NCBI RefSeq assembly: GCF_000005505.3
Contig: NC_016135.3
Location: forward strand, 13,300,613 to 13,364,612
Source of the DNA: Brachypodium distachyon
Taxonomy: Eukaryota; Streptophyta; Magnoliopsida; Poales; Poaceae
DNA length: 64,000 nucleotides
Reading direction: 5' to 3'
Part shown: in pieces, positions 5,612-62,752 of the stretch
Layout: each line of letters begins with the position of its first letter
How positions within the stretch are numbered: position 1 is the first letter of the stretch
Notes under the pieces: generated by a model
Told to the model about the DNA's origin: nothing
What the model saw: only the letters and a program-made list of their open reading frames with translations
Databases searched by the model: none
Made by a program: the position numbers and the translations under genes

Positions 5612-5624
5612 TCTGAGTAAATAT

Positions 5625-5640
5625 TCTTCGCAAAAAAAAA
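5625..5640 (+). mobile_element. Ultra-short TPRT-like insertion (16 bp)
   Basis: The 16-bp TCTTCGCAAAAAAAAA lies between two perfect copies of the 13-bp TCTGAGTAAATAT (5612-5624 and 5641-5653). Poly(A) tail plus duplicated target suggests a LINE/SINE integration truncated to almost nothing. Confidence 0.7.
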
Positions 5641-5653
5641 TCTGAGTAAATAT

Positions 5654-5974
5654 GGTTGGCTCATATATTGAACCTTATTTTCTTGGACAAGACTACTAAG
5701 CGGCCTTCCCCACGAAAGCCGTCGCAGCGGCGCATGTGCATGCTGCCCGCGTCGAGCGTTTCCTGCCCGCGTCCAGCAGCTCGCCAACCCAGCCCACGTC
5801 GAGTCCGGCTCCTGCATGCCCATGCGACGAAAGCGCAGCCCAGCCACGCGACAAAAGCCCACGAGCCAGCTAGCACGTGCTAGCCCCCAAGTGCGACCGA
5901 GTGGCTTGGTTCTACACTTCTCCTCATTTAGCTTTCTTCTTCTTTTAGACTACACATATTTTCCATATTCACAA
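5654..5974. other. Intergenic, GC-rich patch
   Basis: A GC-rich patch at about 5695-5880 has overlapping open frames on both strands with low-complexity Ala/Arg/Pro translations. No gene is supported. Confidence 0.3.
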
Positions 5975-7345
5975 ATAATTGCCAGATTTTTTTAGGAAAA
6001 TAATTGTCAGATTAATCGTGCATAATTGCCAGTTTAATCATGCCTACTTGTCAGATCACATCTACTTGCCTGATTATCCACGCGTGCTTGCTCGATTATT
6101 CGTATGCTTGCCGGATTCTCCACATAGATTTGCCAAATTAATAGTGCATAATTGCGATTCGACAATGCCTACTTGCGGATTATTTCACGTCTATTTGGCG
6201 TATTATCCACACATAATTGCCGGATTATTCACAACTAATTGTCAGATTAATCGTGCATAATTGCCGGTTTAACCATGCCTACGTGTCGGATTATCCACGC
6301 ATGTTTGCCTGATTATTCGCACCTAGTTGCCAGATTCTCCAGGAATACTTGCCGCATTCTCCACACAGACTTGCCATATTAATAGTGCATAATTGCCGAT
6401 TTGACAATGTTTACTTACCGGATTATTTCAGGCCAATTTGGCGGATTATCCACACAAACTTGCCGGATTATTCACAACTAATTGTCAGATTAATCATGCA
6501 TAGTTGCTAGTTATCCACGCCTACTTGCCTGATCATTCACACCTACTTGCCGGATTCTTAATGCATACTTGCCGGATTATTCACCTAGAGTTGCCATATT
6601 AATCATGCATAATTGCCGATTTGATGCCTACTTGCCGGATTATTTCACGCCTATTTGGTGTATTATCCACACATACTTGCTGGATTATTCACAAATAATT
6701 GACAGATTAGTCGTGCATAATTGCTAGTTTAACCATGCCTACTTGTCTGGATTATCCCCGCCTACTTGTTTGATTATTTACGCCTACTTGCCGGATTCTT
6801 CACCCATACTTGCCAGATTATTCACATAGACTTGCCATATTAATAGTGTATAATTGCCGCTTTGACAATTCCTACTTGATGGATTATTTCACGCCTATTT
6901 GGCGGATTATCCACGCATACTTGTAGGATTATTTACAAATAATTGCCAGGTTAATCGTGCATAATTTCCAGTTTAACCATGCGTACTTGTCGGATTATCC
7001 ACGCCTACTTGCCTGATTATTCGCACCGACTTGTCGGATTGTCCACGCATGCTTGCCGGATTATTCACATAGACTTGCGATATTCTACTGCATAATTGCT
7101 GATTTGACAATGCCTACTTGCCGGATTATTTCACGCCTATTTGGCGTATTATCCACACAAACTTGTCGGATTATCCACACATGGTTGCCAGATTAACTGT
7201 GTCTAGTTGCCAGTTTAATCAGGCCTACTTGCCGTCTTATCTACACTTACTTGCCTGGTTAATTGTGTCTAGTTGCCGGTTTATCTACCCTACTTGCCGG
7301 CTGATCTACACTTACTTACCAGGTTAAATGTGCATCCTTGTCCGC
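5975..7345. repeat. 22-bp minisatellite with 11-mer higher-order repeat
   Basis: About 60 diverged copies of a 22-bp monomer with consensus near TTGCCGGATTATTCACACCTAC run head to tail. The monomer types recur in fixed order (for example TTGGCGGATTATCCAC..., TTGCCATATTAATAGTGC..., TTGCCGATTTGACAATGC...), giving a higher-order unit of 10-11 monomers, about 220-245 bp, repeated roughly five and a half times with starts near 6041, 6274, 6517, 6734 and 6978. Open frames across it are by-products of the periodicity. Confidence 0.9.
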
Positions 7346-7914
7346 TTATCCACATCCTAGAGATGTCAGGTTAATTTTAACAACAATGGCTAACATATAT
7401 ATCAGCAAATATCATCAGCATATGCGTGTTGTTCACGTGCCACAGGCAACCAAATTTTCCCAACTCATATCTAGAGGCTAAATCGATGAATTTAATCGCT
7501 CTTCTGCTAATCTACTTCCTCCATGGAGTTGTGTACGCAATTTGGACAAGCACTAATTATAAGTTGCTAGATGGAGTGCTAGAGTAACCATATGCAACAA
7601 GCTGGAACTATAGAACTAGCAACTCCTCGTACTCACCGTCGCCATCGTCTATAGAGCTGACATGAGGCCGCCGCCCTCCAGCTTGCAACTACCATACTCC
7701 ATGAGACACGGCTGCAGGCTGCTGTTGCTAGGAAAGCCGTATGGCTGCCTGCTGTTATCCTTCTTGCGGTCATTAAGTAGACAACAAATAGCCTTCGGTC
7801 TCTCTCTTCGGTGGCTGCGATGGTGGTCGGCGGTGGAGGAGTTCAGCATCGATTTGGTGCAGGCCAAGGTGTAGACTGCAGAGGTTAGGTGATTATGTCG
7901 AGTCGTCCATGGCG
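7346..7914. other. Intergenic, no gene seen
   Basis: Unique-looking sequence downstream of the minisatellite. The open frame here is the antisense continuation of the broken Ca2+-ATPase relic beyond its recognisable part. Confidence 0.3.
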
Positions 7915-8265
7915 TCAAAAAAGGATTCGCCAGCGCGCGCTCTTGAATTAGGTTCTTCATGGTGAAGGCCAGCAGCAAGCCCTCCGGCACATCCCCACGC
8001 GAGCAGCCCGCCGCCGCCGGCCGTGTTCCTGCTGTCCGTCCTCTGACTCCTCCCAGCAGCCTGCGGCGGCGCCACTGCCGGCCACGTTCCTGTTTTGCGT
8101 CCTCCACCCCCCACGCCAGCAGCCCGCAGCCGCCGGCCGCGTTCGCCTTGGACAGCAGGAATCCCGCCATGAGAACGGTGAAGGTCAGCACCTCCCAATC
8201 TTGCCGATGATGGTGGCCACACCGCTGAGCTTCACTGCAGCGTTGTCTTGTCCGCTCAGTGTAAG
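7915..8265 (-). pseudogene. Relic of P2B-type Ca2+-ATPase (ACA family)
   Basis: Minus-strand translation from 8262 gives KLSGVATIIGKIG. After a one-base frame change this continues as LTFTVLMAGFLLSKA, and further on VPEGLLLAFTMKNLIQERA is seen. In plant autoinhibited Ca2+-ATPases these blocks are consecutive: the stretch before transmembrane helix 3, that helix, and the VPEGLPLAVTLSLAFAMKK loop before the phosphorylation site. The region between them is replaced by GC-rich, partly duplicated sequence, and the phosphorylation motif DKTGT is absent. This is therefore a short broken gene fragment. Family recognition is from memory of the ACA sequences. Confidence 0.65.
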
Positions 8266-9530: not shown

Positions 9531-9538
9531 CTTTCCCC

Positions 9539-12256: not shown

Positions 12257-12258
12257 TG

Positions 12259-13231
12259 AGAACCTGTATTTAGCAAGTTGATTTATCCAAATTAACCTTT
12301 TTTGGTATTTAATGTTCTCATTGGTTACAGGGTGGCGAAAACTTCTAGAAGCACGAATCTGATTTGGAAGTGCTCCAAGTGGAATTTTCTTCCGTTTATC
12401 AAGATCTAGCAACAGACCTAAAGATACCGTTACTTTTACCTGGTTTGTTCTCTGCTCATGTAAGACATCATATGCTTGATCTCAGAATAGTTCTAGGAAC
12501 TGATCTTATTTGCAATTTTAATATCCACTAGTTAATATGGGGATAGTTTGATCTTCAGTTAGCTTTGCCCAGGTAAGCTATGAGAAGGTAACTCAGTTGA
12601 GCCCAGCCACACCCTAAGTGACTGGGCTGCTTTGGCTTCTCTCTCAAGCCTAAGCTGACAATACATTTCGAGTTGACATTAGTTTCTCACTAAATGTTTT
12701 CATTGCTTTCAATTGAAACCATCCATATTCACCACATGTAACCTTTTCACTAAAGTAGGGGAGGAGTTTGGCAGTTAGATGCTTACTCTATAAAACCTGG
12801 AAGCTCTTTATTCCATATGAACTGCATGGCAGTTGTTTTGCTCCCTTGCTAACACAGGGTAGCTGATTGGGCTCTCCTTTGCAATTAAGGATTTATGCCA
12901 ATTACAAGCATTTGACAACCTTTCTTATCAAAACTATCTTTCTTTTGAAAAATACAATTGTCCTTACTAAGCAAGGCTAGAATTTAGTTGCTTCTGATCC
13001 CAACAAATCCACATCTATCTATGTTGTCGTGCAATTTGGGATTGATTAGGAATGCTTGAAGGAACATGTCAAGATCCTATTCTTCATTTATTGGCAGACA
13101 GAAGTCATAGAACATTTTCCAGAAGGAAGAAAATTGGTGGTTGATAATTAAGCATGTAATGGGCCAATGCAAACAACCTCATTCCTTTCACTACATTGTT
13201 GTAATGCTACTGAGCAATATGTTCTTGACAG
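12259..13231. other. 3' flank of kinase gene, no gene seen
   Basis: AT-rich sequence, probably 3' UTR and intergenic DNA. No coding segment is convincing before 13232. Confidence 0.3.
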
Positions 13232-13417
13232 GAAAGTGTCAATGGATTTCGCATGTGCAAGAAGAAAAGTACAGTTAAGAAGGAAGATTCAGCTGGAGCT
13301 AAACTGGGTTCTTCCACAACGAAACGAAGTTCTACAGTCAAAAAAGCGATGAATGAAGTGGTGGGTTGGTGGCTTAGATTCCACAATAGACTGCAGAGAA
13401 GATCTTATTGTAATTAG
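13232..13417 (+). other. Possible orphan terminal exon
   Basis: After a good acceptor (TTCTTGACAG) an open frame of 61 codons ends at TAG 13415. Its translation is Lys/Ser-rich (MCKKKSTVKKEDSAGAKLG...) and finishes with VVGWWLRFHNRLQRRSYCN. Codon texture looks coding, but there is no matching upstream exon in a compatible frame and I do not recognise the product. It could be a late exon of the kinase transcript or a gene relic. Confidence 0.3.
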
Positions 13418-13765
13418 TTCGTCCTGTGCATTTCATCTCAGTGACAGTAAAGATTAGGCTGGTGGCATACAATTTTACCCTGTCAATATAAACATACACA
13501 GTAAGCCTTGGTTACTATCGTCCTTTGTTAAAGTGATTTTAGCGACTCGTTGTCTAAACTGTTGTTGTGCTTCCTCATATTGCTGCTGCTTTACCCTATT
13601 GACCGGTTCCCAAGGTCCATTTTGGAATGAATTTTAGCACTGCTGGTTATTTGTTTAGGACCATTGCTGATACGGTGTGTACTGATTTTGCTATGCTTAT
13701 CTGAATGTTTTATGATGGTTCTTGTGACAGTATCAGCGTCAAGAGCTGTACCACTTACTAACAGA

Positions 13766-14240
13766 GGGATCTGGGATCCGGTGCCCTGCTAGAGGCAAGG
13801 CACGGCATGCCCTGCCCACCTTTATCCACCGTCCAATTCAATCCGACGGTCAGCAGAGCAGGAAGCGATTTTTTTTTCCTTGGAAGAACAGACGGTTTTC
13901 ACCCGACTAGTTGACTCCTTGCACGGTGGGATCTGGGATCCGGTGCCCTGCCCACCTTTATCCGACGGCCAGCAGCGCAGGAAGCGATTTTTTTTTTCTT
14001 GGAAGAACAGACAGCGATTTCACCCGGCTAGTTGACTCCTTGCACGGTTAGGCAAGGAGACCTCGTGTCCCCACTCCTTTTCGATTTCGTTGTTGATCCG
14101 CGCGAGCCCGCCAAGCTTTTCTCCGTCCCAGTCCTTTTGCGCATTGCGTTCGTGCTGAATCGTCCGGCTCCTGCCTGCTAACCGTCCAATGCAAATAGAC
14201 GGTAGATGCACAGGGTCAGGGCACGCGGTGACGATCTGGT
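13766..14240. repeat. Tandem duplication, possible Mutator-like MITE
   Basis: GGGATCTGGGATCCGGTGCCCTG begins copies at 13766 and 13928 (period 162), each continuing with CCACCTTTATCC..., CAGCAG.GCAGGAAGCGA, a T-run and TTGACTCCTTGCACGGT. Near 14215-14240 a weak inverted counterpart (CAGGGCACGCGG...GATC) is present, so the block may be a TIR element with a duplicated left end. No target duplication was resolved. Confidence 0.5.
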
Positions 14241-14377
14241 TATAGGCTCATGCACCCTTCTAAATACAGGCTCATCAGGGCAAAGCCCGGGCGCAGAAGG
14301 AAACTCAATGCCTGACATATATACATCATAGAAAGGCCGAAGTCTTTTAAATCCACAAACAGAACGATAGTGCATAT

Positions 14378-14390
14378 ACCCGCAAAAAAA
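14378..14390 (+). mobile_element. Ultra-short TPRT-like insertion (13 bp)
   Basis: ACCCGCAAAAAAA lies between 17-bp direct repeats AGAACGATAGTGCATAT (14361-14377) and AGAACCATAGTGCATAT (14391-14407), 16 of 17 identical. Confidence 0.65.
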
Positions 14391-14587
14391 AGAACCATAG
14401 TGCATATGACAGTAGAAAAGAGCACGAGATATACTACCGGATCGTACATTGTTAAGAAATTGCTAGGTGGAATAATTCCGGTGCACAATGACAAATAACT
14501 TGAATGAACTAGGTATGGTGCTCCATGACAACTGCTGAATTCAAAGGAATGTGAAGTTATTAAGTAATGGTGCAAACAGGTGTTCAA

Positions 14588-16752
14588 CTAGTTCAAATTT
14601 TTGCTCTAGCAAAATTTGGAGATTTATGTATGTACAGGATAAACCGGATGCCCGCTTGCATCCATATAACCAGGTGATCCTTTTTTCCCCTTTAAACTGA
14701 CCTAACCATTTTTTTTACTCTAGCACCTGACCTGCTACCCATGGTTTGAAGTGTGGTACAGCATGCAAAGTACATTGATTTTAGAATTTGTTTTGGTTGA
14801 AGGGAATTTGAGAACTCCAATAGCAGGGACTGTTTGGCTAGTCTGATAATCATCTTTTTAAAATAGTAAGTTCATTTGTGACAGAAGAAAATACGAATCT
14901 CTGCACAGAGTTCATGAATTGGACTAATGAGCATTAAGAACATCTCAAATGGGAGCTTCCAGTTTCAGTCATAGCTTGAAGTAGTCATGGCATCGAGGGC
15001 ACGCTGATGTCGACCATCCCCTCAAGAATCTGAACCACCCGTCATATTGTCGGCCAATCAAACTCGTCATCTCGTATGCACCAACATGCAACCTTGCAAG
15101 CTATTTGAACCTCAAGTAGATCGACATCACCCTGTAACATGTGATCTACCAAGCTCCCAGATTCTCCCTCGAGAAGCTTACGTGCAGCAAGCAAAAGGAA
15201 GTAGACACCATGATCACTGCAACAACCACAAGAGCGTGGTGCTTGTGAGTTCCTCCTCCCAGATATGATTTCCAGCAACACCATCCATAGTTTTATGCCT
15301 GTACACACCGGCTTTCAGTGTGATTGTGATGCCACAGATCCACTCAGGTGCAAGGTACCAAGTAGTCCCTCTCATCATAGTCAGTACATGGCTAAAATCC
15401 TTTCCCAAAATCTTGGCCATCCCAAAGTCAACGATTTTTGGAGTGAAGGAAGCATCAAGAAGGATATTCTCTGTTTTAATGTCGCATTGTATGATACAAT
15501 CTTGACAGCTCTCGTGCAAGTAAGCCAATCCTCTAGCAACTCCAAGGGCTATTTGGTACCTAGATTTCCAGGATATTGTGGTCATGCTCTGAAACAGATC
15601 GAGATCAAGTGATTTATTTGGCATGTGTTCGCAAAGAAACAATCTGCTGCCACCCTCACAACAAAGACAAATTAATCTGACCAAATTGACATGCTGGATG
15701 GTCCCAATCGAGCTCACCTCAGCCCTGAATTGCTTCTCTCCTTGGCAAGCTTGATCAAGCCTTTTCATTGCGATGGTTGTGGAGTCACTTAGGACTCCCT
15801 TGAACACACAACCAAAGCTTCCTCCCCCAACCTTCTCAGAGAAACTACTAGTTGCATGTCGCAAATAAGTGTACCCAAACGTTGTGATACCAGTGAAACC
15901 TTGAGCATCACTCAAGCCCCATATACCACCGGCAGAGAACTTTGTTTTGTTCTTAAAAATCACCGGTAGTAAGAACAGTAATAACAAACCTAAAGCAGTA
16001 ACAGTTGCACAAATGATAGCTCCAACAATCAATCCTCTTCTGTTGGGTTTCTGAGCGTGCAATTCATCGGCGTTAAGCCGAACGTAAAGTGTTTCTCCAT
16101 CTATGCTGGAAATTGCACTGCCTTGTTGCTGACTTATGTCAAGCAGATCATTGTGCCAAATGGAGCATCCACCATCCCCAATGCAATACGCGGTGCAAGA
16201 ACAGTCCCTCTATCAAACTCGTGCACATTCACCAGCGTTAGAGTGGGCATTTTGGGGCAATTTAACACACGCAATAGAGTGGAACTTGTCTGTGGAGCTT
16301 GTGCTTTTGTTGCCAATGCAGTTTAACAGAGTATTCCTCAAGCACCCATCGGCTCAATCATCATCTCCCAATTCTTTGGTGATCTCACCTTGAAGCCCTC
16401 CATACAATTGCAAGATGACAACGCATCATTATTGCAAAATTGTGAAAGGTCCACAAATAGCATAGACATCACAAGCTTTGGGTTGGGCAAACATCATTAC
16501 CCGATGTTGTGAGCGTTCTAGCCAAACATATACCTTTGCTTTCATCGTCTAGGGTATACATGAAGTACTCCTCTTGATCATTGTCGACACATGTGAAATT
16601 GACAAGTTTATGCTTTGACATCTCCGGCATTGATGCAAAGTATTGGCCATTCCAGACACCACTAGACCAATATGGCATGGAAGAGTTCAGTGTTGTAAGA
16701 AGGTACTCTGGTAGACACCACTGGGGTCTAACTCCTCAGAGTAGACACCAGC
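14588..16752 (-). repeat. Segmental duplication, copy A
   Basis: This segment aligns along its length with 18077-20261: about 340 bp of 3' non-coding DNA plus the C-terminal two thirds of a receptor-kinase gene. Homology starts at CTAGTTCAAATTTTT and ends at CCAGCAG. Copy A has lost about 40 bp near 16510-16535 relative to copy B. Confidence 0.9.
14920..16752 (-). pseudogene. G-type lectin S-receptor-like kinase pseudogene A
   Basis: The minus strand encodes part of the S-locus glycoprotein/PAN region, a transmembrane segment (LIVGAIICATVTALGLLLLF near 16020) and a kinase domain, all broken. The lectin domain is missing: similarity ends at 16752, where opposite-strand sequence takes over. 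Defects include a deletion and frameshifts at about 16320-16540, a frameshift near 15240-15300, and a TGA where intact copies read RPTMG. Catalytic residues are also degraded: HCDIKPEN of the relatives is QCDIKTEN here. It is most similar to pseudogene B at 18404-20799, its duplication partner. Confidence 0.88.
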
Positions 16753-17025
16753 AGAGTACATACACTTCTCCAGGGAGATGTGGAAAACTTGGTGGATGGA
16801 AAATTATCCGGTGATGTAAATCTAGAGCAGGCTGAACGGCTATGCAAGGTTGCTTGCTGGTGCATTCAGGATGATGATCTTGATCGACCGACGATGGGCG
16901 AAGTTGTTCGTGTCCTAGAGGGTGTGTTCGATCTTGAAATTCCCCCGATGCCAAGGCTACTTCAGGCCATTACAAGGAGGGCACACCCGGCATCAACCTA
17001 TCTGCCCAACGAATTGGAACAGTGA
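16753..17025 (+). pseudogene. C-terminal fragment of an S-receptor-like kinase
   Basis: The plus strand reads LLQGDVENLVDGKLSGDVNL, then CKVACWCIQDDDLDRPTMGE, then IPPMPRLLQAI, ending at a stop at 17023. This is the last lobe of the kinase domain plus the tail of the same receptor family as its neighbours. It lacks everything upstream, and its 5' edge abuts the truncated end of pseudogene A on the other strand. Confidence 0.85.
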
Positions 17026-17906
17026 AGATGTAGCATGGTGTATGTATTGTCAGCATCTACCTATAGGCTATAGGAAGAGAATAAGAGAGACCGAGCTCAG
17101 TAAGAAGAGTGTCATCCTAGTTGTGTAATTTAAGCTCTACCTTGTACCAACACCAGGTGCGTAAATGGTTATATATGCATTTCTATGAGAACCTTGTGCT
17201 CTTTTGTTTTGTTTTCTGTTATGGCTGGTGCAACAAAGTGGTTTCGTCCATTCATTTTGAGCCGCTTGGATTGTTGTATTTTTAGTGGGAGGGCTGGTAT
17301 TTAAATCAAGTTCAACTTTCCTTGTTCCATTGTCTGGCACGAGCCTGACGACGAGAGCTCACAGGCCATGGTCCTAGGCATAGATGCAAGGAATCTGTCT
17401 TCCTGGTTCCGTTGCTAAGCCAGTATATATAAGCCAAAGATCTCCAAGAAATCCAACTGCATAAACGGTTTGCTTCTCTTCAAGTCCCAGGGTCAGAGGA
17501 ATACGGCGTTAAATTTCCATTGATTTCAGTTTCCACGACGACGTTGCGTCGTTGTTAGCCGTCATACCATCACGTGTTATTTTTTTCAATATCGTTGTCA
17601 AAACTTGATTCCTCACTAGTTGTGCGAAATCAACATGTATATGTGTCGTTCAATTGGGATCCTCCAGCATAAATATTTGGTTTTTGTTTGTGAGGGTGAC
17701 AAGAGGCTGCTTGTCTTTGACACATGCCAAATATTTCCCTTGATGTTCATCTGTTCCGGAGAAATGCAGAGACAGGTGGGCGATATGGGCATTAGCTATT
17801 TTCAGTTTCAACCGAACGACCACTCCTGCTGGCCATCACCTCTGTTATTTAAATTGATTGAAATCTGAAATAGCAGCATGGTTGCTTAGACAAAAGTAGC
17901 TAAAAG
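17026..17906. other. Intergenic within receptor-kinase cluster
   Basis: No gene is seen. A TATATATAA sequence at 17424-17432 resembles a core promoter, but nothing intact follows it; it may be the leftover promoter of the receptor whose last codons lie at 17907-18023. Confidence 0.35.
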
Positions 17907-18023
17907 TTTGAACGACCGACTATGAGCAAGGTGGTCCAAATTCTTGAGGGTGTTGTTGAAGTTGACACGCCACCGATGCCAAGGCTAATCGAAGCTATCG
18001 CTGGAAGATCGCATTCAGCATGA
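17907..18023 (+). pseudogene. Terminal 38-codon relic of an S-receptor-like kinase
   Basis: The plus strand reads FERPTMSKVVQILEGVVEVD then TPPMPRLIEAIAGRSHSA and a stop at 18021. This is the family-typical C-terminus (RPTMxxVVQxLEG, PPMPRLLQAI). No upstream kinase sequence remains, so it is a second independent relic on the + strand. Confidence 0.85.
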
Positions 18024-18076
18024 GCCTAACCAGGCAGGATGCAAATGGGATCCGTTTGTCTTGTGTAAATGACTTG

Positions 18077-20261
18077 CTAGTTCAAATTTTTTCTCTAGCA
18101 AAATTGGAGATTTACTTATATACAGGATAAACCGGATACACGCTTGCATCCCTAAAGCAGGTGACCCATTTTTTCCCTTTAAAGTGAACTAACCTAACCA
18201 TTTTTTTTACTCTAGCACCTAATTTGTACAACATGCAAGTACATTGAGTATAGAATATTTTTGTTAGAAGGGAATTTGAGAACTTCAATATCAAGGACGG
18301 TTTGGCTAGTCTCACACAATCATCTTTTTAAAATAGTAAGTTCATTTGTGACAGAAGAAAATACAAATATCTGCATAGAGTTCATGAATTGGACTAATGA
18401 GCATTAAGAACATCTCAAATGCGAGCTTCCAGTTCCAGTCATAGCTTGAAGTAGTCGTGGCATCGGGGGAACGCTGATGTCGACCAGCCCCTCAAGAATC
18501 TGAACCACCCGCCCCATTGTCGGACGATTAAACTCGTCATCTTGTATGCACCAACATGCAACCTTGCAAGCTATTTGAACCTCAAGTAGATCGACATCAT
18601 CCTGTAACATGTGATCTACCAAGCTCCCGGATTCTCCCTCAAGAAGCTTACCTGCAGCAAGCACAGGGAAGTAGACACCATGATCACTGCCACAAGAGCA
18701 TGGTGCTTGTGAGTTCCTCCTCCCAGATATGATTTCCAGCAACACCATCCCATAGCTGTACACATCGGCTTTTGGTGTGATTGGGATACCACAGATCCAC
18801 TCAGGTGCAAGGTACCCTGCAGTCCCTCTCATTGTAGTCAGTACACGGCTAAAATCCCTTCCCAAAATCTTGGCCATCCCAAAGTCAGCTATTTTTGGAG
18901 TGAAGGAAGCATCAAGAAGGATATTCTCTGGTTTAATGTCACAATGTATGATACAATCTTGACAGCTCTCGTGCAAGTAAACCAATCCTCTAGCAACTCC
19001 AAGAGCTATTTGGTACCTAGATTTCCAGGATATTGTGGTCATGTTCTGAAACAGATGGAGATCAAGTGATTTATTTGGCATGTGTTCGTAAACAAGCAAT
19101 CTGCTGCCACCCTCACAACAAAAACCAATTAATCTGACCAAATTGACATGTTGGATGATCCCAATCGAGCTCACCTCAGCCCTGAATTGCTTCTCTCCTT
19201 GGCAAACTTGATCAAGCCTTTTCACTGCAATGGTTGTGGAGTCAGTTAGGATTCCCTTGAACACACAACCGAAGCTGACTCCCCCAAACTTCTCAGAGAA
19301 ACTTCTAGTTGCACGTCGCAAATCAGTGTACCCAAACGCTGTGATACCAGTGAAAAATTGAGCATCATTCAAGCCAATATACCACCAGCAGAGAACTTTG
19401 TTTTGTTCTTCCAAATCACCAGTTGTAAGAACACTAATAACAAACCTAAAGCCGTAACACTTGCACAAATGATAACTCCAACAATCAATCCTCTTCTGTT
19501 GGGTTTCTGAGTGTGCAGTTCGTCGGCGTTAAGGCGAACATAAAGAGTTTCTCCATCTATGCTGGAAATTCCACTGCATTGTTGCTGCCATATGTTAAGC
19601 AGATCGTTGTGCCAAATGGAGCATCCACCATCCCCAAAGGAATACGCAGTGCAAGAACAGTCCCTCTGACAAACTTGTGCACATTCACCGGCGCTAGCAG
19701 CAATTTGCATGCTTTGGGCATTTTGGGGCAATTTAACACATGCAATAGAGTGGAACTTGTCTGTGGAGCTTGTGCTTTTGTTGCCAATGCAATTTAACAG
19801 AGTATTCCTTGAGCACCCACCGGCTCGATCATCTAGCTCCCAATCCTTTGGTGATCTCACCTAGAAGCCCTTCATACAATTGCAAGATGACAGCGCATCA
19901 TCATTGCAAATTGTGAAAGTTCCACAAATAGCATAGACATCACAAGCTTTGGGTTGGGCAAACATCATTACCCACTGTTGTGTGCTTTCTATCCAAACAT
20001 ATGCCTTTGCTTGACCGGACACATCCAAATAGTTACGAATTACCATGCTTTCATCGTCTAGGGTATACATGAAGTACTTCTCTTGATCATTGTCAACAAA
20101 TGTGAAATTGACTAGATGATGCTTTGACATCTCTGGCATTGATGCAAATTATTGGCCATTCCAGACACCACTAGACCAATATGGCATGGAAGAGTTCAGT
20201 GTTGTAAGAAGGTACTGGTTGACACCACTAGGGTCTAACTCCTCAGAGTATATACCAGCAG
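18077..20261 (-). repeat. Segmental duplication, copy B
   Basis: Partner of 14588-16752, with shared non-coding 3' flank and shared coding sequence. Copy B is more complete, as its gene continues to 20799. Confidence 0.9.
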
Positions 20262-20799
20262 CTGGGTTGACCGAGTTCTTCCAAGAAACAAGGCGGTGGT
20301 TCAGGCCGGTGACCTTGTCCCATCCAAGTTTTGCCCCAGGGAGCGATGTATCAGTCGGGTAGTCAAAGCTCTGCCACAAAATTTCTGATGGGTTTGAGGA
20401 ATTCTGTAGGATGAGATTTCCACTGTCCAAGAGGACAGCGATGGTGTTGTTGGCTTTGACGTTTGCTCGGGTGGACCAGATCACGGAGTTACTAGACCGG
20501 TCTAAGATGACAAGGTTTCCATCATGAAAGATTACAAGCTGTAGCAGGGTGGTGTTCTTTACTGGGATAACCCTATTTGCAACCCATGCTGGGGTCAGCT
20601 TGGGAACTGTGTTGAACCATATGCCCATGTACCAGTTGGACTCGCCGCCAGTCTGGAAGAAGCCAAGCGCGTACCTGCCATTCCGGGAGACAACCTTGTC
20701 GCCGCTGCCCAGTGGTTGTCCGGCTGAGATGGTGTCCGTCGTGGCGGCAATGCTTAGGTGGAAGAGAGTGGCGAAAACAAAGAGGATGAGATGCACCAT
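18404..20799 (-). pseudogene. G-type lectin S-receptor-like kinase pseudogene B
   Basis: Starting at ATG 20799 the protein has a signal peptide (MVHLILFVFATLFHLSIAA), a B-lectin domain (TISAGQPLGSGDKVV...GRYALGFF), S-locus glycoprotein and PAN regions, a transmembrane segment near 19450 and a kinase domain with GVSFGCVFKG, AVKRLD, HCDIKPENILLD, DFGMAK and the tail RPTMGRVVQILEG. Three lesions interrupt it: TAA in place of TAC just after VWNGQ (about 20150), TAG after CNCMKGF (19861), and a frameshift just after the transmembrane segment (about 19370-19470). The glycine loop is altered (GGVSFG for GAGGFG). The kinase domain alone is an open frame of more than 300 codons, so decay looks recent. 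Confidence 0.88.
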
Positions 20800-21477
20800 G
20801 GACTGAGGGGGGAAAGCGAGCTTGAAGTTGCAGAGACTGCAGGCGTGGTATTGTGGTAGGACGAGCGCTCGGTGTTATTCCAAAAATAAGCGTGTTGAAG
20901 TCTATTACCTAGTCAAGTGTCGAACAACCACCAAATTAACTACTCCGTATCAGTTAACTAATGGAGTGAAAGAAAACATGTTTCAACGCTGATGTAGGAT
21001 GCCAGGCTTATTTAGTTATCATCAACCGCGACAACATCCACGACCACGACAGGTAGTCCGTCTTAGCTTCTATTTCTATAATACCATCGCTTTCCTTGAA
21101 CTTGAAATAATTAAGTTGAAAATGGGCATGGTTTATGAACGACTGAGTTGCTAATACATCCCGCATTGGCCATGGCGACACAAGATCTTCAGCGATCGGC
21201 TGGTGCAACATCCACAGCACAAACAGGGACAGCGCAATTTAGATTTTATTACTGCCCCGGAATGAATGGGAAGTTCTGTGACCAACTAAGGTTACTAATT
21301 TATTGTCTTTGACTGGACGTGTTACTAGTGGATGAAAACAGTGTCTGTCTCACGGTTGTTTTTCTGACGCTTATTTACCGCCCTCTCCAAGCAAATTGTC
21401 TTCATCTATTTGGTGGTTCCAGTGCGGTGGTGCAATATGATCGACACTCGAAGGGTCAAAGTTTCATGGGTAAAATA
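20800..21477. other. Intergenic between divergent receptor kinases
   Basis: Promoter side of pseudogene B. No gene is seen. Confidence 0.3.
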
Positions 21478-21493
21478 AGGAACGGTGACGTCT

Positions 21494-21504
21494 CCCTCAA
21501 AAAA
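21494..21504 (+). mobile_element. Ultra-short TPRT-like insertion (11 bp)
   Basis: CCCTCAAAAAA lies between AGGAACGGTGACGTCT (21478-21493) and AGGAACGGTGAAGTCT (21505-21520), 15 of 16 identical. Confidence 0.6.
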
Positions 21505-21950
21505 AGGAACGGTGAAGTCTGGATTTGGTACAGATTAATTTGCCAATCCAACTGCTCCGTGTGAAGTTTTTAACCGATGGAGTTTCGTCCTTGTTTCCAT
21601 CTCCGACCGTAGTTAAACCATCCCTGTAATTTGATGCTTTGCTACATGCAGGCCACGAAACAGCACACGCCCAGGGCACAGATGCAAGCTGCTCATCACT
21701 GTTCTCATAGGTTTTTATGTCTTCGCCCTTGCTCATCACTGTTGACTTGTTGAGCTCGTAGGCAAACATGGATACGATGCTGGTCCAAAATCGTCATCGT
21801 CAAACCTCAACGCCAAGCAATGAACTGGTCCAAAATCGTAGGCAACCTGAACTGGGAAGTTTTTACAGAAATTTTCTTCCAACAATGGACAAGCGAACGT
21901 TATATCTAACCATTTTCACCTGACCCAGGCAACACTTGCTTTATTTTATC

Positions 21951-22326
21951 GGTTTTGCTATTTCTTAGGCGACTGAGAAATAACTATTTCTTAGTCGATG
22001 ATCACAACCTTTTGATTCAGTCATTGAGATTCATGTAAAATTAATGTAGGTTTGATGAATGAGAAAATCTTAATTGGATGGTTACGATTGTCGACTGAAG
22101 AATAACTATTTTTTAGGCGAATGAGAAATAGACACTCCCGGTTTTGCTATTTCTTAGGCGACTGAGAAATAACTATTTCTTAATTGATGATCACAACCTT
22201 TTGATTCAGTCATTAAGATTCATGTAAAATTAATATAGGTTTGATGAATGAGAAAATCTTCATTGGATGGTTACAATTGTCGACTGATAACTATTTCTTA
22301 GGTGACTGAGAAATAGACACTCACTT
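21951..22326. repeat. Tandem pair of palindromic-ended MITE-like units
   Basis: Two 189-bp units start at 21951 and 22140 with GGTTTTGCTATTTCTTAGG. Each is bounded by inverted TATTTCTTAGGCGACTGAG-type sequence and ends GAGAAATAGACACTC. They are about 90 percent alike. The sequence lies about 420 bp upstream of the receptor kinase at 22743. Confidence 0.75.
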
Positions 22327-22742
22327 ATTTTATTTGGAAACGAGGCAGGCAACATTTATTTGACCAAGTAATGGATTCAGACTTTATTTCCAAGATACCA
22401 CGACAGTCCTACTTACGTAAGTTGTTGATACTAGATCCTAGTTAAAGCGATTTGCCGTCGAGCACAAATTTGGGTCATTCTTGAGACGCCATGACCACGG
22501 CACTGCAGAGTCTAATCCACAAGCCTCTGATAAATGCCAGTCGTAGTCAGCGGCCGGCAGCACCGTGCCCCAACAGAAGCTTACGTATCACTCGGTCTGT
22601 CCTGTGGCTAGCTAGCACTATGCCGCAACAGATGCTTACATATTACTCGGTTGTCTTGTGGCTAGCTCTCTCTTCGTTCCATATACTTGTGCCGCATTCC
22701 TCGTATCCTCACGCTGAAGGAAAGCAATTCCAGTGGTTCACC

Positions 22743-25157: not shown

Positions 25158-25312
25158 TTCAAGCATCGCTTGTCGTAAATCCTAGAATATAAGCAGAGAC
25201 ATGCTGAACTTATCAGATACTGTCACAAGTACATTTTGTATAATATTGATAAAAGAGTATAGCATTCATTGCTAGCATTCCTAACTGCATTATATTTTGT
25301 TCGTGCATGTAG

Positions 25313-25401
25313 CCGATTGGTACCTGGACCGAACTTCAGAAGAGGCAGAGAAACTGAAAGATACCAGAGGTAGTGCACTGCACCAGGGAGCTCATTCTTG
25401 A
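25313..25401 (+). other. Probable alternative last exon of receptor kinase 1
   Basis: AAT|GTAAGC at 25134/25135 and GCATGTAG|CC at 25312/25313 give an intron of 178 bp. The joined frame replaces the last seven residues by SDWYLDRTSEEAEKLKDTRG and nine more residues, stopping at 25399 (826 aa in all). The paralogue at 27345 has the same splice position, phase and a similar peptide (29934-30034), which supports real coding use. Confidence 0.6.
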
Positions 25402-31572: not shown

Positions 31573-34500
31573 TCAGACAATACTCGGAACATCTCCAGCC
31601 CAGTTGCAAACTGCTCGGGGCCATCGAGTTCTAATACAGTCCACTAGCGGCGCATGCTGAGAAGTCTGAACAGGTGGAGCAAGAGAAAGAACACTGTCAT
31701 CCTTGCTGCCGCTGGTCGATGAGCTTACTACATCAGCTAGATATTCATCCTGACTCCACCTAGGTGGGACACTGACATTTAACCTGCATATCCTGGGTCT
31801 TTGTATTGGACTTGAGCCTCCTGTGCTTGAATTCCCATTCAGCACAGACTTGGCGATTCCATTAAAGTGGTACATAGTGAATTGCTTCTTACCCATAAGG
31901 CCAGTTGGATCCTTCATGCCTCCAGCCCGTTTATCCAACTGTAGTAGTGCCTGCCAGAATTCACTCCATACTATAATACCCGCATTACAGAGATCCTCAA
32001 GCTTATCAGGAGGAAAATTTATGTCAGTATCCCTGAGAACTTGTTGGAATCCCTCAACGCTAATAAAGCCTCCACCTCCACTTTGATCTTGAGCATCAAA
32101 TGCCCTCCTAATTTTGGATTCCCGCTCTTCCAGCTCATTCTCCTCTTGGACGTTGGGATTTAGAGCAAAAAGGACAGTGTAGTGACTTTCACTTCCCACC
32201 ACCCATATAGGCCATTTTGGGCATTTCAGGTACTGACCAACCTTGCACAAATTTAGTGATTCCAGAAGGGTAAGGAAACCAACTTCCACATCATTTGGAA
32301 TGCCTTTCAGAGACATGCCACCACCAAGGTCCATCTTACCATCAAATACATTTGGAACAGCCTCTCCGCAAAGCAATAAATTCACAATTTCCTGCAAAAG
32401 ATCACATTATTTACATAAGAAGTTGTGATATAAAATTGTTACTAATATAAACAGGCAGCACTAGGGCATTAATTTTGGTTCAATATTGTAGTTCCTAAGT
32501 GAATTCAGTACTGCATTGCAAGAGTAGGCACAGTGTGAACTGCTAAGGTACGGTTGCGCTAAATACTGCAGTATATGAAGATGCTATCTTATACCTGTGA
32601 AGCATGCCCAAATGGAGCTGTGACCAATGGTTGGCTTGGATCATCCCTGTCTGTTTGGATAAGTTCCTGAATTAAAAAATGAATTTTCAAATACAACTTT
32701 AAATTTACAATGTATTTAGTCAAACAGAACATAATGCAGCAAAAAGGTACACAGCTAAACATGGATAGAGACATACCAATCCCCGTGAGAGTAGAGAAGA
32801 GATGAGAAATAAAATGGCTCCCAGTCGACTTTCGAATAGAGGAATGTTTGCCAGAAGCATGTTGAATGCATCCTTCCTCGAGGTAAATGTACATACTCTA
32901 AGAACTTTCTGGAAATCCATTGCTGATTCAACAGAAAGGCCTTCCAAAGTGGGATCAATTTTCTGCAGAAATTTCATAAGAAAATTACTGGCATGTTGTA
33001 CATGGAAGTATAACAGCCTCAAAATATCTCATAGCCTATAAGTACCTGCTTGCTATCAGATCCACTTACTCCACGATTGACACCTCCAACGATAGCCACA
33101 ACAGCCTTTTTCCCAGCTCCACATAAAAAAAGAATTTCCACCATAGCATGAACCAATGCTCTAATAAACACGAAAGAATAAATTAACAGTCATTTGAATA
33201 ACAAGAATATTAAGTACACTGATGTCTTGGTGTAGCTAATAAAAAAAGACTGAGCTTAAACTCAAACGGTTGATCTTTCATATCAGCTGCTAGTTCTTTA
33301 TTTTTCATCATTAAGAACAGTGGCTCATAAGAATAATTGAATAGATAAATGATCCCAAGGCAACACTAGCATCACTGTCATTTTTTAGAAGCAAAAGAAA
33401 GTACCTCTTCTTTCCATCCTCAGTTAGGGAAGAAAAATCATCCCTGGCAGCAAAAGAACTCTGATAAAAGCGTCTTTGTCCCAAAGCATATGATGGATCA
33501 CTGACCTCTGGATTATCCAAGTTATCAGAGAAAAACAAAATATATTTGAGGACATATGCCTGCAAAAGAAAATCATAAGTTGACATGAGAAATGTTTAGC
33601 TTGCTGAGAGCAGAAACAATTTCACAGCAGATAAAAAAAGAAATAGTTAATAGTGCGATAAATCAAAAAATAAGATTTAAACTCATATCAAACTAAGCTT
33701 ATACAAACAAAAGGTAGAAATTAGATAAGCTCATCTTCAAAAACTGTTTCTGTTAAATTTAATGTAACAGCAGAATGCTCTAGCCTATCTCTTACTAAGA
33801 GAAGTCTATTCAGACTTATCGTCGTCAAAGACAGGGGTTTGTTCTCACAATAATTTATGTGAAAAATCAGGAAATAAGATTTAAAATCAGATAAAGGTGA
33901 GCGCATATAAAAGAAAGTAGATTGGGAAGCTACAGATTTGAACTTTTCGCTGCAAAATTTAGAGTAACAGCAGAATGCTCCAACCTATCACATACTAAGA
34001 CATTTAATGGTGTTCATTAATATTGACATTTGACAATGTTCAGTTCAGGAAGTCCAACTGAAATGATCCAGTTACTGTAGCCCAGTTAGCAGGATGGGAA
34101 GTTTTCTTCTTTTTTGAGGGAGACAGGATGGGAAGTTAGGTCGCTGCAGCAACAAGAATGGTTTCATAATACTCCCTCCTTTTTCACAAAGCATGGCGTA
34201 TTAGTCCTGTGCACTTATACCAAGGAGGCTTCTTGCTCACGTATCCTGGACTAATTTGCCCCTGATATCAGCTTGGGCAGACGCGCTATGGAATTAATCA
34301 CCACATGCAGCCGCTGCAGTAATACTCGTCCTGGCCAGTGCGCGTGCAGTTGGGCACTCCATGTGCAGCACGTCCCTTGGGCCCATGCACTGCAAGCTTC
34401 CATTCTTTTCCACGAACAGAGGAAGATCTAGAAGCAGCCAGCGTTGAACATGGAGGAGGATTGGTTACTGTTCATGGCGTCAGCCATGAAGGCAAAGGGA

Positions 34501-38500: not shown

Positions 38501-39393
38501 AAACCCTAGGGGGGCAAACCCCTCGCCCCCGGTCAGAGGCTTCGAGCTAATGAGGGAAAGCGGGCAGCTGTTGTTGGAATTTGGGTGTGTCGCATCGGGA
38601 TCCGAGAAGTGGCGGCGGCTCAGGAGGCCGAGACAGTCGTTGTATTTGTAGGGGCGCCGTCGCGACGGCGATGCGACGGGGAGGTGGATGTTTGTGTCAG
38701 AAACGGAAGTACGCTCCTAGCCTCCTGGGGACTGCTCTGTGCACTGCTCGCCTGCAGCTCACGCGGGTGGTTTGCTAGAGCACCCCATGACCTGTGGGGC
38801 CGAGATAGATTGTGGCCCAGTTGTCATTACCTAATGGTAGTTGCACTGGTTGTAGCTAGTAGAACGGCGCGAGAGTTAGGTTCCTTGCTTTGGAGTTTGG
38901 ACAGTTTGAGGAGGAATTTACGAGAGTGGCCCCGACCCCAACGCTTGACGATCTCGTGAGATCGGTCTCCATCGTTGGTCTACGGCTCCATGCTAGGAGC
39001 CATTCCCTTCTGGCCGAATTCAATTTCTAGGGTTAAGGGCTTTTTCAAATAAAAGATGAACTAAAAAACACGAACAAAAGAAACACGGAAATAAAATGTT
39101 ACAGTATGATATGTTAAATCCTACCGGAACTGAAAACATGAGAATAAAAGAATGCAGAAATTTGTATTGGAGATTGTCACGGACGCAAAGAGTTTTGTTT
39201 CTGCATGTCCAACTTCTCTTTGATTTGCATAATTTTAAAAACATAGAAGCAGGAAAAACACATAAATATGATAGGGACGCATGTGCAAAACATATTGTTC
39301 AAAATGTAGGAATTTATAAATTTTATAAAGTTGAAGCTCACTAAATGCATTTAATTTAGCAAACTAAACATGCAGGCTATCCACATCAGCATT
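38501..39393. other. MINDY3 5' UTR/promoter and intergenic DNA
   Basis: 38501-38800 is GC-rich and is the likely leader and promoter of the minus-strand MINDY3 gene. 38800-39393 shows no gene. Confidence 0.4.
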
Positions 39394-39405
39394 CTCTCAA
39401 AAAAA
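39394..39405 (+). mobile_element. Ultra-short TPRT-like insertion (12 bp)
   Basis: CTCTCAAAAAAA lies between TCCACATCAGCATT (39380-39393) and TCCACGTCAGCATT (39406-39419), 13 of 14 identical. Confidence 0.6.
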
Positions 39406-39841
39406 TCCACGTCAGCATTTATATCTAATTTTTAATTTCTAAACCACGTCACCGCTTTTCGTACGAGTAACCATACAACGTCGTCCCGAACTCCCGTTCC
39501 CGCACGAGGCTTCGCTAGAATCACGAATCTACCAAGTTCATAGCCCACCCAAGAAATCTGGCCCAAGTTTCCAGCCCACCACGTCCACCAGACCGTTCTC
39601 ATGGGCCTTCCAGCATGTACCTTTTATTCTCCCAGACTCCTCTTCTTCTCTACCGAATGTTCATTTACTTCCCACATTCATCGGCAGCATCTAATCCGTC
39701 GCCACGCCGGATGCTCTCCCGAACCGACGAAGGGAGTTGATGAGTCGTGTTCCACTGTTCCCTTTAAAGGCCTACCCCCTCCTCCTCTGTCATTGCCCCG
39801 TCCCTAGGGTTCGCCCGTCGCCTCGCCTGCGCCGTCGCCGT

Positions 39842-40547: not shown

Positions 40548-40562
40548 TTCATCTGTTCTTTT

Positions 40563-40577
40563 TCTTCGCAAAAAAAG
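40563..40577 (+). mobile_element. Ultra-short TPRT-like insertion (15 bp)
   Basis: TCTTCGCAAAAAAAG lies between two perfect 15-bp repeats TTCATCTGTTCTTTT (40548-40562 and 40578-40592). Its head TCTTCGC is identical to the insertion at 5625. Confidence 0.72.
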
Positions 40578-40907
40578 TTCATCTGTTCTTTTCACTGAAA
40601 CTTATATTCTTTTCATCTTCGTTACTCTGATTCAGCTTACCATAGTTGAGAATGTTTTAAAAAACATTTGACGGAAAAGAAAATTTAAATTTCAGAAAGC
40701 TAAAACATTGAAATTTTGCGGCGTATTTTTTTAGCAGTCGAACATTGCTTCATATTTGAGGTCCTGCTAATTTTCTATCTTGCAGATGTAAATGTGCAGA
40801 TAATGATATTCCCATGAGAGTAAATTTTCTAATTTGACACTTATTAGCCGACTTTTACCATAGCTGATTGCCAATGTCTCAGGCTGCAATAAGTTTCTGA
40901 ACTGTGG

Positions 40908-42798: not shown

Positions 42799-42920
42799 AT
42801 ACGGAGTATGATCAAACGTCTTCCAAGTACTCCAAACATAGACCTGTCTGACACTCCTCAAGTTCATGGATCGATACCGAGTGCACACTGGCACTAGCAT
42901 GTCCCGTCAGGAAATCTGCT

Positions 42921-42935
42921 TTTTTGTTTGAGAGG
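42921..42935 (-). mobile_element. Ultra-short TPRT-like insertion (15 bp)
   Basis: The minus strand reads CCTCTCAAACAAAAA, between two perfect 15-bp repeats GTCAGGAAATCTGCT (42906-42920 and 42936-42950). It is 500 bp upstream of the SEC5 start. Confidence 0.68.
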
Positions 42936-43441
42936 GTCAGGAAATCTGCTGATTCCGTAGAAGCATCGTGTTTTCACGGGAATAAAAATTCTATACATTC
43001 CCTTGCCCAGCGACCCGGTCGTTGGATCACAAGATCCATTCACGCTCAGATCACAAGCCCAGCTCCTCTGCCCACTGATTCACATCGCACGACCGCATAG
43101 GATTTTTTTTTTTCGTTTTCACGACAACGCAAGTTCAGCCTGTCTGCCTGTCCAACTGTCCAACCAATTCTTCTCGGCTTCTCGCCAGTACACCACGGCT
43201 GCCGGAACCGGGTTCAGGTGTTCTGGTCGTACCATCGAGCCAGCATCCGAGCACAGAGCCACACACGAGGCGGGCACGCCCGCCTCCGAACCACCGTTCG
43301 GTCCAGCCAGCGGGACCAGCAAACTCCGTTCCGTGCGTGGTCACACCGAAATTTCTCCCTCTCTCTCTCACTCGCCCGACCCTCCTCGTCATCTCGTCCC
43401 CTCCCCCCCCGCCGAGATCCAGGCCCCCGACACCTCCGGCC

Positions 43442-60487: not shown

Positions 60488-60682
60488 TAGTTGCCACAAC
60501 GTCTACCACCAAAATAAACCAACTTATACCGGAAAAGGAGATGCCTCGGTGACAGCCAAAACGGCTCGTTGGAGTACACTTTAGGAGGGAGGACACGCGC
60601 AGAACAACAACAAAAATATATATGGAAAGAACGGAATGCCACACAGCAAGGCCGATACATCACAAGCCAAATGTCGTACGTA

Positions 60683-60795
60683 CTCCTTCCGATCCATATT
60701 ACTTGTCTCAAATTTACCCAAATATGAATGTATCTATGTTTAAAAAGCGTCTAGATACATGTAATATTTCAACAAGTAATATGGATCGGAGAGAG
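60683..60795. mobile_element. Stowaway MITE, opposite orientation
   Basis: CTCCTTCCGATCCATATTAC / inverted GTAATATGGATCGGAGAGAG, TA at 60681-60682 and 60796-60797. Its interior is the inverse of that at 60375. Confidence 0.88.
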
Positions 60796-60797
60796 TA

Positions 60798-61433
60798 CAT
60801 TAATGTCGTACCCTCTAGAGCAGTCCCTGCCGACCTTATATACTCGGTCAGCTTAGGGTATATTACAAGCCTTATCCTAAGTCTCATTGAAACCGACTAC
60901 GTCCCTTGTCTTGTAGAACAAGTGTTGCTCGTCGTACGAGGCCTAGGCTTCTCTCTGTGGTCTGCTTGGCACTAATATCTTCCTCCTGGGCCTACCCGGT
61001 TGGGTATTCCCTCATGAAACATTTCTACTCAAAACTCCAAATCATTGTGAATAAACTTGTTATAATCCAAAAGATCATATTTGGATGCCTGCCATTAATT
61101 ATTTGCAGTAATGGGTATAATAAATGCATTTATTTTGGCTGCAAATATAGGAGGTTGGAAAGATATATTGCTATTTCCTTGTCAAATATGGAGTATATTT
61201 CCTTGTCAAATATGGAGTATATGAAGTATTTATTATTGGATTCCGAGCTAGGTATAATTTTGGTTTTAGATATTTGCTATTTTAGGGAATATCCTTTTAG
61301 ATTTTTGCTCTTATAAAGATGACAATCTGTTTAGGGTAGACATTGCTATTCCCATATCATATATTCACTATTGGATTCTGAGCCAGATATGTTACTCTCA
61401 TGAAGATGACAATCTGTGACCGGCTTGCGGTTT
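60798..61433. other. Intergenic, no gene seen
   Basis: AT-rich sequence with short duplicated phrases (TTTCCTTGTCAAATATGGAG twice around 61177-61212; GGATTCTGAGC-type twice). No gene. Confidence 0.3.
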
Positions 61434-61442
61434 CTTACGTGT

Positions 61443-62204
61443 GGAGAGAATATCTAGTGCTCCGAGGCATGAGGTGCTCCCAAATAGTGTCGTGCTCCAG
61501 AGCCATCTAGACCGCTTGATTTAAATCCAATGGATAGAACTAGAGCATTTGACAGTTTTTCATTTAGATCCTTATGTTTTTTGTGAATCAACCCGCACTA
61601 CACTCCTCTCTAGTCAGACTGAGCCCATCTCATTGGTATATTTGTTGGTATATGGTATAAGAATGATATATTTCATTGGTATATGGTATATGAATGGTAG
61701 ATGTCATTGATATATGGTATGCCATTGCTATATGTTATTGATATATGGATTAAGAAAACATGTGGGCTGGTAGAAATGTTATATCAATGAAATAATATAT
61801 GCTCATGAAATTATCAACAAAGTTTCAATGATATATCAATGAACATTACCAAAGTTTCAATGATATATCAATAATGTACATATGAATTGTATATGTAGAC
61901 TGCAGGTGGATTTTGACAAAGCTCAGTGGTGTAAATGAAAAAATGAATAGAGAGAGGAGTGGAGTGCGGTTTGATTGTGACAAAGATCAAGGCTATAAAT
62001 GAAAATTGACTAGAGAGAGGACTGGAGTGCGGTTGATTTTGACAGAGCTCAAGGGTGTAAATGAAAATGACTAGAGAGGAGTGTAGTGCGGTTGATTCAC
62101 AGAAAACTTAAGATCTGAATTAAAAACTATCAAATGCCCTAACTCTATAGGAGCATGGCACAATTTGGGAGCACTCATGCCACAGGAGCACTGGATATTC
62201 TCTA
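61443..62204. mobile_element. Mutator-like non-autonomous element
   Basis: Long imperfect terminal inverted repeats (about 61443-61614 against 62069-62204): AGAGAATATCTAGTGCTCC on the left, inverted GGAGCACTGGATATTCTCT on the right. Flanks CTTACGTGT (61434-61442) and CTTACATGT (62205-62213) form a 9-bp target duplication with one change, the Mutator length. The inner part of the right arm (GAGAGGAGTGGAGTGCGGTT) is tandemly triplicated, and the centre is rich in TATATGGTAT. No transposase coding. Confidence 0.82.
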
Positions 62205-62462
62205 CTTACATGTGGTGCAATTTCAATCGGAGATTTGCTAACTGTACGAAATCTACTAGTACAACTTACGTACGATGCAGAGCCAAACTAATGGTCCCAC
62301 AACAATCAGGGCTTGGGATTTGGGCCTTGGAGAATCGGCAGAAAATTCAGTATCGTACGCCGGCAGTTCTGTACAATTTTCAAAGGCATGGCATGAAGCA
62401 CGATAACAGTGATTAGACATGTTCAGATTTGCTATAGACTGATTTTTAGTTAGAGGTAAGTT

Positions 62463-62477
62463 TTTTTTTTTGCGAGA
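62463..62477 (-). mobile_element. Ultra-short TPRT-like insertion (15 bp)
   Basis: The minus strand reads TCTCGCAAAAAAAAA, between two perfect 15-bp repeats AGTTAGAGGTAAGTT (62448-62462 and 62478-62492). Confidence 0.72.
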
Positions 62478-62752
62478 AGTTAGAGGTAAGTTAATTCCTC
62501 AGACATTGGATGTGGCCCTTGCTTTCAGATTAGGAAGGAACCATGGAAAGAGAAGAGTGAGATTTGCCTAGTAATTCAAGCATACGCCATTCAAATCCTG
62601 GAAAGAAAAACACACGCACGTTCATTGATTTTTGTCCCCTACCCCTAGTGTCTCGTGACACCCAAAGCGTACACTTTCGACCTCGATTGATACATGCATG
62701 ATAGTACTACTCTACTACAATTGATCTGCGAGGAGATCATGTTGTTAATTGT

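Follow-up and report, generated by a model that had tools for sequence, protein, structure and literature searches.

Poly(A)-tailed micro-insertions in the Brachypodium distachyon genome point to LINE-type reverse transcription that stops just beyond the tail

A stretch of 64,000 nucleotides (nt) of the Brachypodium distachyon genome (C6:13300613-13364612, hereafter the window) contains eight places at which a head of a few nucleotides, followed by a run of A, is enclosed by two copies of the same short flanking sequence, raising the question of how inserts of this size arise. A long target duplication together with a terminal poly(A) is the established signature of target-primed reverse transcription (TPRT) by long interspersed nuclear elements (LINEs) of the L1 type, and an earlier note on this DNA had proposed that LINE machinery repeatedly integrates just the last (about 6–12) nt of a template plus its tail. 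The question was examined here in the window and through pattern counts, which refer to the 271.3 Mb genome; fetched loci are given as L numbers.

All eight sites claimed were present on direct reading and were re-found by an independent direct-repeat scanner. On the plus strand, TCTTCGC-A9 at 5612..5653 lies between exact 13-bp copies of TCTGAGTAAATAT and TCTTCGC-A7 at 40548..40592 between exact 15-bp copies of TTCATCTGTTCTTTT; ACCCGC-A7/8 (14361..14407) and CCCTC-A5/7 (21477..21520), both also recovered in the census described below, each lie between 17-bp repeats with one mismatch. On the minus strand, exact copies flank TCTCGC-A9 (62448..62492, 15 bp), CCTCTC-A3CA5 (42906..42950, 15 bp) and TCTCCCTC-A6GAAGAA (34090..34137, 14 bp). 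The A-run is broken by other bases at 42906 (AAACAAAAA) and at 34090 (AAAAAAGAAGAA), and the latter site stands outside the strict census because of its interrupted tail. The remaining candidate, CTCTC-A6/7 (39379..39419, plus strand, 15-bp repeats with one mismatch), is ambiguous: it lies where an arm of a dispersed repeat ends, and as two of 13 fetched copies of that repeat (L163 and L166) have another, similar CCACGTCAGC motif that lacks poly(A), its 'duplication' may be ancestral and the site is not secure. The duplications measure 13–17 bp at all eight sites (insecurely at 39379) and, as had been stated, five of them are perfect (5612, 34090, 40548, 42906 and 62448); the heads, said to converge on two forms, take more than two.

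Direct-repeat structures of any kind numbered 39 in the real window compared with a mean of 1.35 in twenty Markov shuffles of it, and none of these shuffles contained an insert ending in poly(A) or poly(T) between repeats. A wider census covered 276,368 bases, comprising the window and the flanks of 28 fetched loci, from each of which the central 420 bp had been removed; these loci were picked for TCTTCGC-A9 and are therefore not a random sample of the genome. For heads of 3–9 nt the census gave 20 inserts ending in A6 or more, against two ending in T6 or more and none in one shuffle, and the equal frequency in shuffled DNA that the earlier note had set as its counter-test is excluded by the window and census shuffles alike. 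Seven of the 20 lie in the window and 13 in the 212 kb outside it, with heads CTG, AACC and GAAAGAT (outside) and TCCT (in the window, beside a tandem array) being doubtful members. The density outside the window is one per about 16–21 kb, so that the one per about 8 kb previously put forward was overstated about two-fold; a rough extrapolation from these few sites gives some 13,000–17,000 micro-insertions in the genome.

Paralogues were sought for 39 sites in sets of 1, 7, 16 and 15, with 40 of 130 candidate matches scored for the 7-site set and 40 of 45 for the 15-site set. The two larger sets were drawn from 34 candidate sites, three being left out (two window sites already in the 7-site set; and L014, a paralogue of 5612). 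For the 16-site set the genome was searched with the two flanks joined as an artificial empty site, and matches running through the joined flanks, of equal length within 2 nt, were found for L007 (six), L009 (three) and L025 (one); the fetched sequences of these copies, 75–85% identical to the query, contain the repeat once and lack the insert. At 40548 the insert is present in three paralogues (L147–L149, 94–97%) and missing from L150 (C3:2105599, 77%), in which a single TTCATCTGTTCTTTT is followed by five extra bases, with small local differences. In total, 11 empty paralogues carrying a single repeat copy show at four sites (40548, L007, L009 and L025) that the micro-insertions are insertions. 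Two ancestral repeat copies, which the earlier note had named as contrary evidence, were thus looked for in paralogues and the opposite was found at these four sites, 39379 being ambiguous. The 15-site set gave no empty paralogue, and neither of its two fetched right-flank matches (L051 and L036) was informative; for the remaining sites the matches scored included either no informative paralogue or only filled ones. Over site 5612 only filled paralogues were found (C1:57272373, 90%; C6:2085259, 95%), indicating that this insertion predates those duplications. Pieces of window 2900-5684 have 95–98% copies at C6:2083147-2083270 and C6:2085259-2085624, probably a segmental duplication in which the old stub was carried along.

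Across the genome, TCTTCGC-A9 occurs at 63 places and the reversed pattern at two. All 63 places were read; as the site reads the same in L013, L027 and L056, they comprise 61 distinct sequences. The duplication score measures the match between the 24 nt preceding the head and the 22 nt following the tail, with mismatched pairings as the control: 46 of the 61 sequences scored at least 10, as did 0.17% of mismatched pairings, and 52 scored at least 7.5, compared with 1.6%. L005 and L047 have the same flanks and represent one event, as do window site 5612 and L014, so that the 52 stubs would correspond to about 49 separate events once copies are allowed for. Among these A9+ sequences stubs outnumber long copies by 52 (46 by the stricter score) to three. 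The TCTTCGC-A9/10 stub has been multiplied within a repeated host element at five of the 63 places (L005, L013, L027, L047 and L056).

The length of the insert is sharply confined. Exact repeats of 10–19 bp are present at 37 TCTTCGC sites, where the heads are TCTTCGC (12), CTTCGC (9), TTCTTCGC (6), GTCTTCGC (3), CTCTTCGC (2), TTCGC (2) and three single forms; 32 of the 37 are 6–8 nt long, a range whose lower bound is partly fixed by the search pattern and whose upper bound is not. No clear head longer than 11 nt, short of the three 3' ends of longer elements, was found among the 61 sequences, and all inserts scoring at least 11 for duplication are under 30 nt in total. The A-runs at the 37 sites vary from 7 to 13 with no significant correlation with head length (Spearman 0.28, p 0.10). 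Inserts of 10–24 nt leave no room for internal RNA polymerase III A and B boxes, so these are not short interspersed nuclear elements (SINEs) by that measure. At L017:4987-5077, CTTCGC-A9 and an adjoining opposite-strand CCTCTC with an A-rich tail occupy one target and share the repeat GAAGCACCGTATTTT.

The head pattern YYTCYC-A10 is likewise commoner forwards: it is found at 510 genome places, the reversed pattern at 85. Of 21 sampled sites (all on C1), ten scored at least 10 for duplication and 13 at least 7.5, while none of the mismatched pairs of this sample reached 10. A score of at least 9 was obtained for eight of ten sampled CCTCTC-A10 sites and for five of 11 TTTCTC-A10 sites.

Four LINE-like families were compared by their 3' ends as a possible source of the heads. 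Family I ends GGGAGCRNGGCTCC-TTTCTCT-An (21 genome matches, 20 fetched, 18 reaching the 3' end), and the TTTCTC head resembles this terminus minus its last T. One of the 21 matches is in the window itself, a 5'-truncated LINE of 122 bp (2917..3038, minus strand) with the terminus GGCTCC-TTTCTCT-A8 and a 17-bp duplication at 2900-2916 and 3039-3055. Family II ends GATGCAGAGGCCGGGG..CCTCC-TTTTCG-An (40 of 164 candidates scored, 21 read). Family III ends ATCGGTGGTCC-TCTTCGC-An (40 of 144 scored, 20 read in addition to L002 and L048), with the consensus terminus GATCGGTG(A/G)TCC-TCTTCGC-An; TCTTCGC is exact in five of the 22 copies read, a count that includes L002 and L048, both selected on that word, and TTCGC is present in eight of the other 20. 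Family IV ends AATGAAATCTCC-TTTTCTCGC-An or variants of this (25 matches, 20 read in addition to L034, which ends TTCTTCGC), and TCTCGC, the head at 62448, which matches the TTCTCGC terminus of this family, occurs in four of the 20. Six family IV copies were translated, and each has a frame reading ...CWLGSNPLEDAPDVTVL* or a relative of it, with the stop shortly before the tail; a single copy contains another, earlier stop upstream. We take this frame to be the end of a plant LINE open reading frame 2. Judged from these alignments, TCTTCGC (family III consensus) and TCTCGC (family IV) are LINE-type termini. The suggestion that heads match the 3' ends of resident LINEs therefore holds for these two; for CTCTC, CCCTC and CCTCTC no match was seen among the ends read. 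A protein search turned up only relatives of a generic plant LINE endonuclease and was set aside.

One-sided poly(A), duplications of 13–19 bp and LINE termini together argue for TPRT, and we consider it highly probable that these sites reflect TPRT by L1-clade LINE machinery that ends almost at once, 5–8 nt past the poly(A), and leaves a stub. The earlier proposal of LINE-driven integration is to that extent supported, but in place of a template end of 6–12 nt most heads are discrete, 5–9 nt long and have a sharp 5' limit. Following the established course of TPRT, a nick would be made in the target, where a LINE-type RNA would prime through its poly(A); reverse transcriptase would copy the A-tail and then, to go by the extent of the inserts, only the last 5–8 nt of the RNA body. 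The short cDNA would be joined and the staggered cut filled, an outcome seen in the 13–19 bp duplications and the empty sites and presumably reached by the usual enzymology. Since the A-run varies and the stub hardly does, the stop would lie at a fixed position on the template, following the RNA body rather than the distance from the priming site. The cause we favour is a grip on the RNA just upstream of the tail, exerted by the enzyme or by a structure that it holds, which may make elongation fail there.

If stubs arose from any LINE tail, random target bases would be expected in front of many TTTTCG-A9 runs. This pattern occurs at 218 genome places (17 reversed); among 100 listed places counted by hand, with a pattern that omits G in the two preceding bases, the LINE's own CC precedes it in 69, a dinucleotide one base off CC in 27 and two off in four, whereas CC precedes TCTTCGC-A9 in five of 61 sequences, or five of the 39 without G in those two positions. 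The abundant family II, with its TTTTCG terminus, thus occurs mainly as longer copies, a contrast indicating that the stub habit belongs to some templates and depends on the template. A stub habit of all LINE tails is rejected, since family II does not follow it, and the view that LINE machinery does this generally falls with at least this one abundant family. The effect would be strong for templates with the TCTTCGC end, as in the consensus of family III and in one copy of family IV, and weak for family II. For family I the same test is weak because places are few: TTTCTCT-A9 was found at 32 (eight reversed), preceded by CC in 11, CT in 12, TT in five and other bases in four (hand count), and one further place, C3:34195225 (preceded by TC), belongs to a known family I copy.

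Folding of the aligned 3' ends covered 18 family I rows (L067–L084), 21 of 22 family III copies (L109, in which the motif was not found, was dropped) and 20 of 21 family IV copies (L138 dropped). Consensus folds predict a conserved terminal hairpin for family I (-11.4 kcal/mol) and family II (-12.7 kcal/mol), and no consensus base pair at the 3' end is predicted in the alignments of families III (21 rows) or IV (20 rows); a universal terminal hairpin as the cause of the stop is accordingly rejected. Two family II copies, L044 (514-571) and L106, are cut at about the outer limit of the structured 3' domain, with duplications of 15–16 bp and inserts of 58 and 61 nt; in L100 the join is ambiguous (50–58 nt) and L089 is weak. 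Truncation at nearly the same place (about 50–61 nt) suggests a second recurrent stop in this family.

The alternative that survives best, unlikely in our view but the most serious of those weighed, is that the stubs are full copies of very short polyadenylated RNAs (UCUUCGC-An, CCUCUC-An; decay or processing products) used in trans. A sharp 5' limit suits the end of a template as well as it does a stop, the heads are diverse, several lack a long source among the ends read, and the long family III copies look old. That TCTTCGC and TCTCGC are LINE-like 3' termini follows naturally from aborted synthesis and needs an extra step if the templates were short, and the extra 5' bases vary from site to site (TTCTTCGC, GTCTTCGC and CTCTTCGC at six, three and two of the 37 exact-repeat sites). 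Less likely again, and in our judgement improbable, is that the stubs are the extreme of ordinary LINE 5' truncation, grading continuously into the longer copies and involving no particular stop. LINEs truncated to 122 bp and to 58 bp, each with a good duplication, speak for it; against it, the length of inserts with the TCTTCGC end is bimodal, a duplication score of at least 11 is confined to inserts under 30 nt, and family II, with its 218 A9+ ends, is represented mostly by longer copies. Random 5' truncation of one long element is rejected in view of the sharp limit and of the lack of any common upstream sequence among stubs from separate events.

Repair of double-strand breaks with filler DNA, a known repair route in plants, might create direct repeats by chance, and those of the window's 39 direct-repeat pairs that lack poly(A) may be partly of this origin. 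As the source of the stubs it is very improbable: poly(A) on one side only (20 versus 2) is not what it predicts, nor is one stub shared by dozens of unrelated loci or the match to LINE termini, and where filler insertions should show neither strand asymmetry nor a recurrent insert, here one stub recurs with a duplication in 52 of 61 sequences. Chance, microsatellite or assembly effects may account for site 39379 and for an extra window hit beside a tandem array (5973-6013), but as a general explanation they are hardly credible given the shuffle, poly(T) and mismatched-pair controls and the empty paralogues, which already exclude them at four sites.

Several observations weigh against stalled TPRT on a LINE template as we prefer it. 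Nine of the 61 TCTTCGC sequences have no clear duplication; three of these are ends of longer elements (L002, L048 and L034) and six could not be assigned, and six of the 11 sampled TTTCTC-A10 sites likewise lack one. Empty copies were limited to four of the 39 sites queried. None of the LINE-like 3' ends read offers a long source for the CTCTC, CCTCTC, CCCTC or CCCGTC heads. Long family III copies are only 72–83% identical to L048 whereas the stub duplications are mostly near-perfect, so that the RNA now serving as template may be a different one that shares this end. Given hairpins in families I and II and not in the stub-type families III and IV, a simple hairpin stall is not favoured. The target bases also fit imperfectly: in 62 candidate structures, a few of them doubtful, the base before the duplication is T in 31, C in 24 and G in seven (A being excluded there by the definition of the start), with A at +1 in 39 and at +2 in 32. 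The human L1 endonuclease prefers a clean TT/AAAA, and this tally points, weakly, to a Y/A-rich nick preference instead.

Other features of the window stand apart from these inserts. Besides the eight sites, the scanner gave 31 further short direct-repeat pairs around inserts, spread over 1765-62097, some in tandem arrays and the rest unexplained. An array of about 1.2 kb at 6170-7350 is built from 22-bp units (TACTTGCCGGATTATTCACGCA) that have diverged, and also shows higher-order periods of greater length. Long open frames clustered at 15214-29765 look, by eye, like receptor kinases of the lectin type, some of them in broken copies.

The micro-insertions resemble known L1-clade TPRT products (5'-truncated LINEs, SINEs and processed pseudogenes) in their 3' poly(A), duplications of 13–19 bp and, for two head types, LINE 3' ends; they differ in having a body of only 5–9 nt and a near-constant 5' limit across unrelated loci. 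An L1-endonuclease-mediated poly(T)/poly(A) insertion of about 120 bp in exon 25 of human NF1 was suggested by its authors to be a severely truncated Alu, L1 or processed pseudogene (PMC3219598). That is a single case, with no recurrent head reported in the portion of the paper available, whereas the inserts studied here have tails of about 5–19 A and a recurring head. In colorectal cancer, the accessible part of a report on short L1 transductions gives median insertion lengths of hundreds of bases or more (PMC13009371). According to excerpts of two further papers, ORF2p of ZfL2, a LINE of the stringent type, binds a 3' stem-loop (PMC4176376), and monocot 1a L1s and ZmSINE2/3 share a conserved 3' hairpin and stringent-type recognition (PMC3747384). 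Families I and II, with a predicted hairpin near the tail, are like the ends described in those excerpts; the stub-type families III and IV, with no conserved terminal hairpin in our alignments, are unlike them, and the excerpts report no stub insertions (PMC3747384, PMC4176376). Titles and abstract beginnings of the open-licence literature, whose longer result lists were covered in part, contained no description of recurrent stubs of 5–9 nt.

We tentatively suggest that a LINE reverse transcriptase of this grass may have an abortive-initiation mode like that of RNA polymerase, a possibility that we rate at slightly less than even. For some templates most TPRT events would then end at a fixed point 6–8 nt past the poly(A), at which the enzyme has to release its hold on the RNA 3' end, and the stubs, in the order of 10^4, would be the smallest recurrent retroposons and a genome-wide, family-by-family record of failed retrotransposition. 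If this is true, a failed LINE integration leaves some 30 bp behind, made up of stub, tail and the additional target copy, as a scar that carries both a date and a family label, and the rate of abortion, the choice of target and the activity of LINE families would be measurable from an assembled genome, even where full copies are rare. Such scars, probably too small for the usual repeat annotation, would in addition contribute short indels and A-runs to grass genes.

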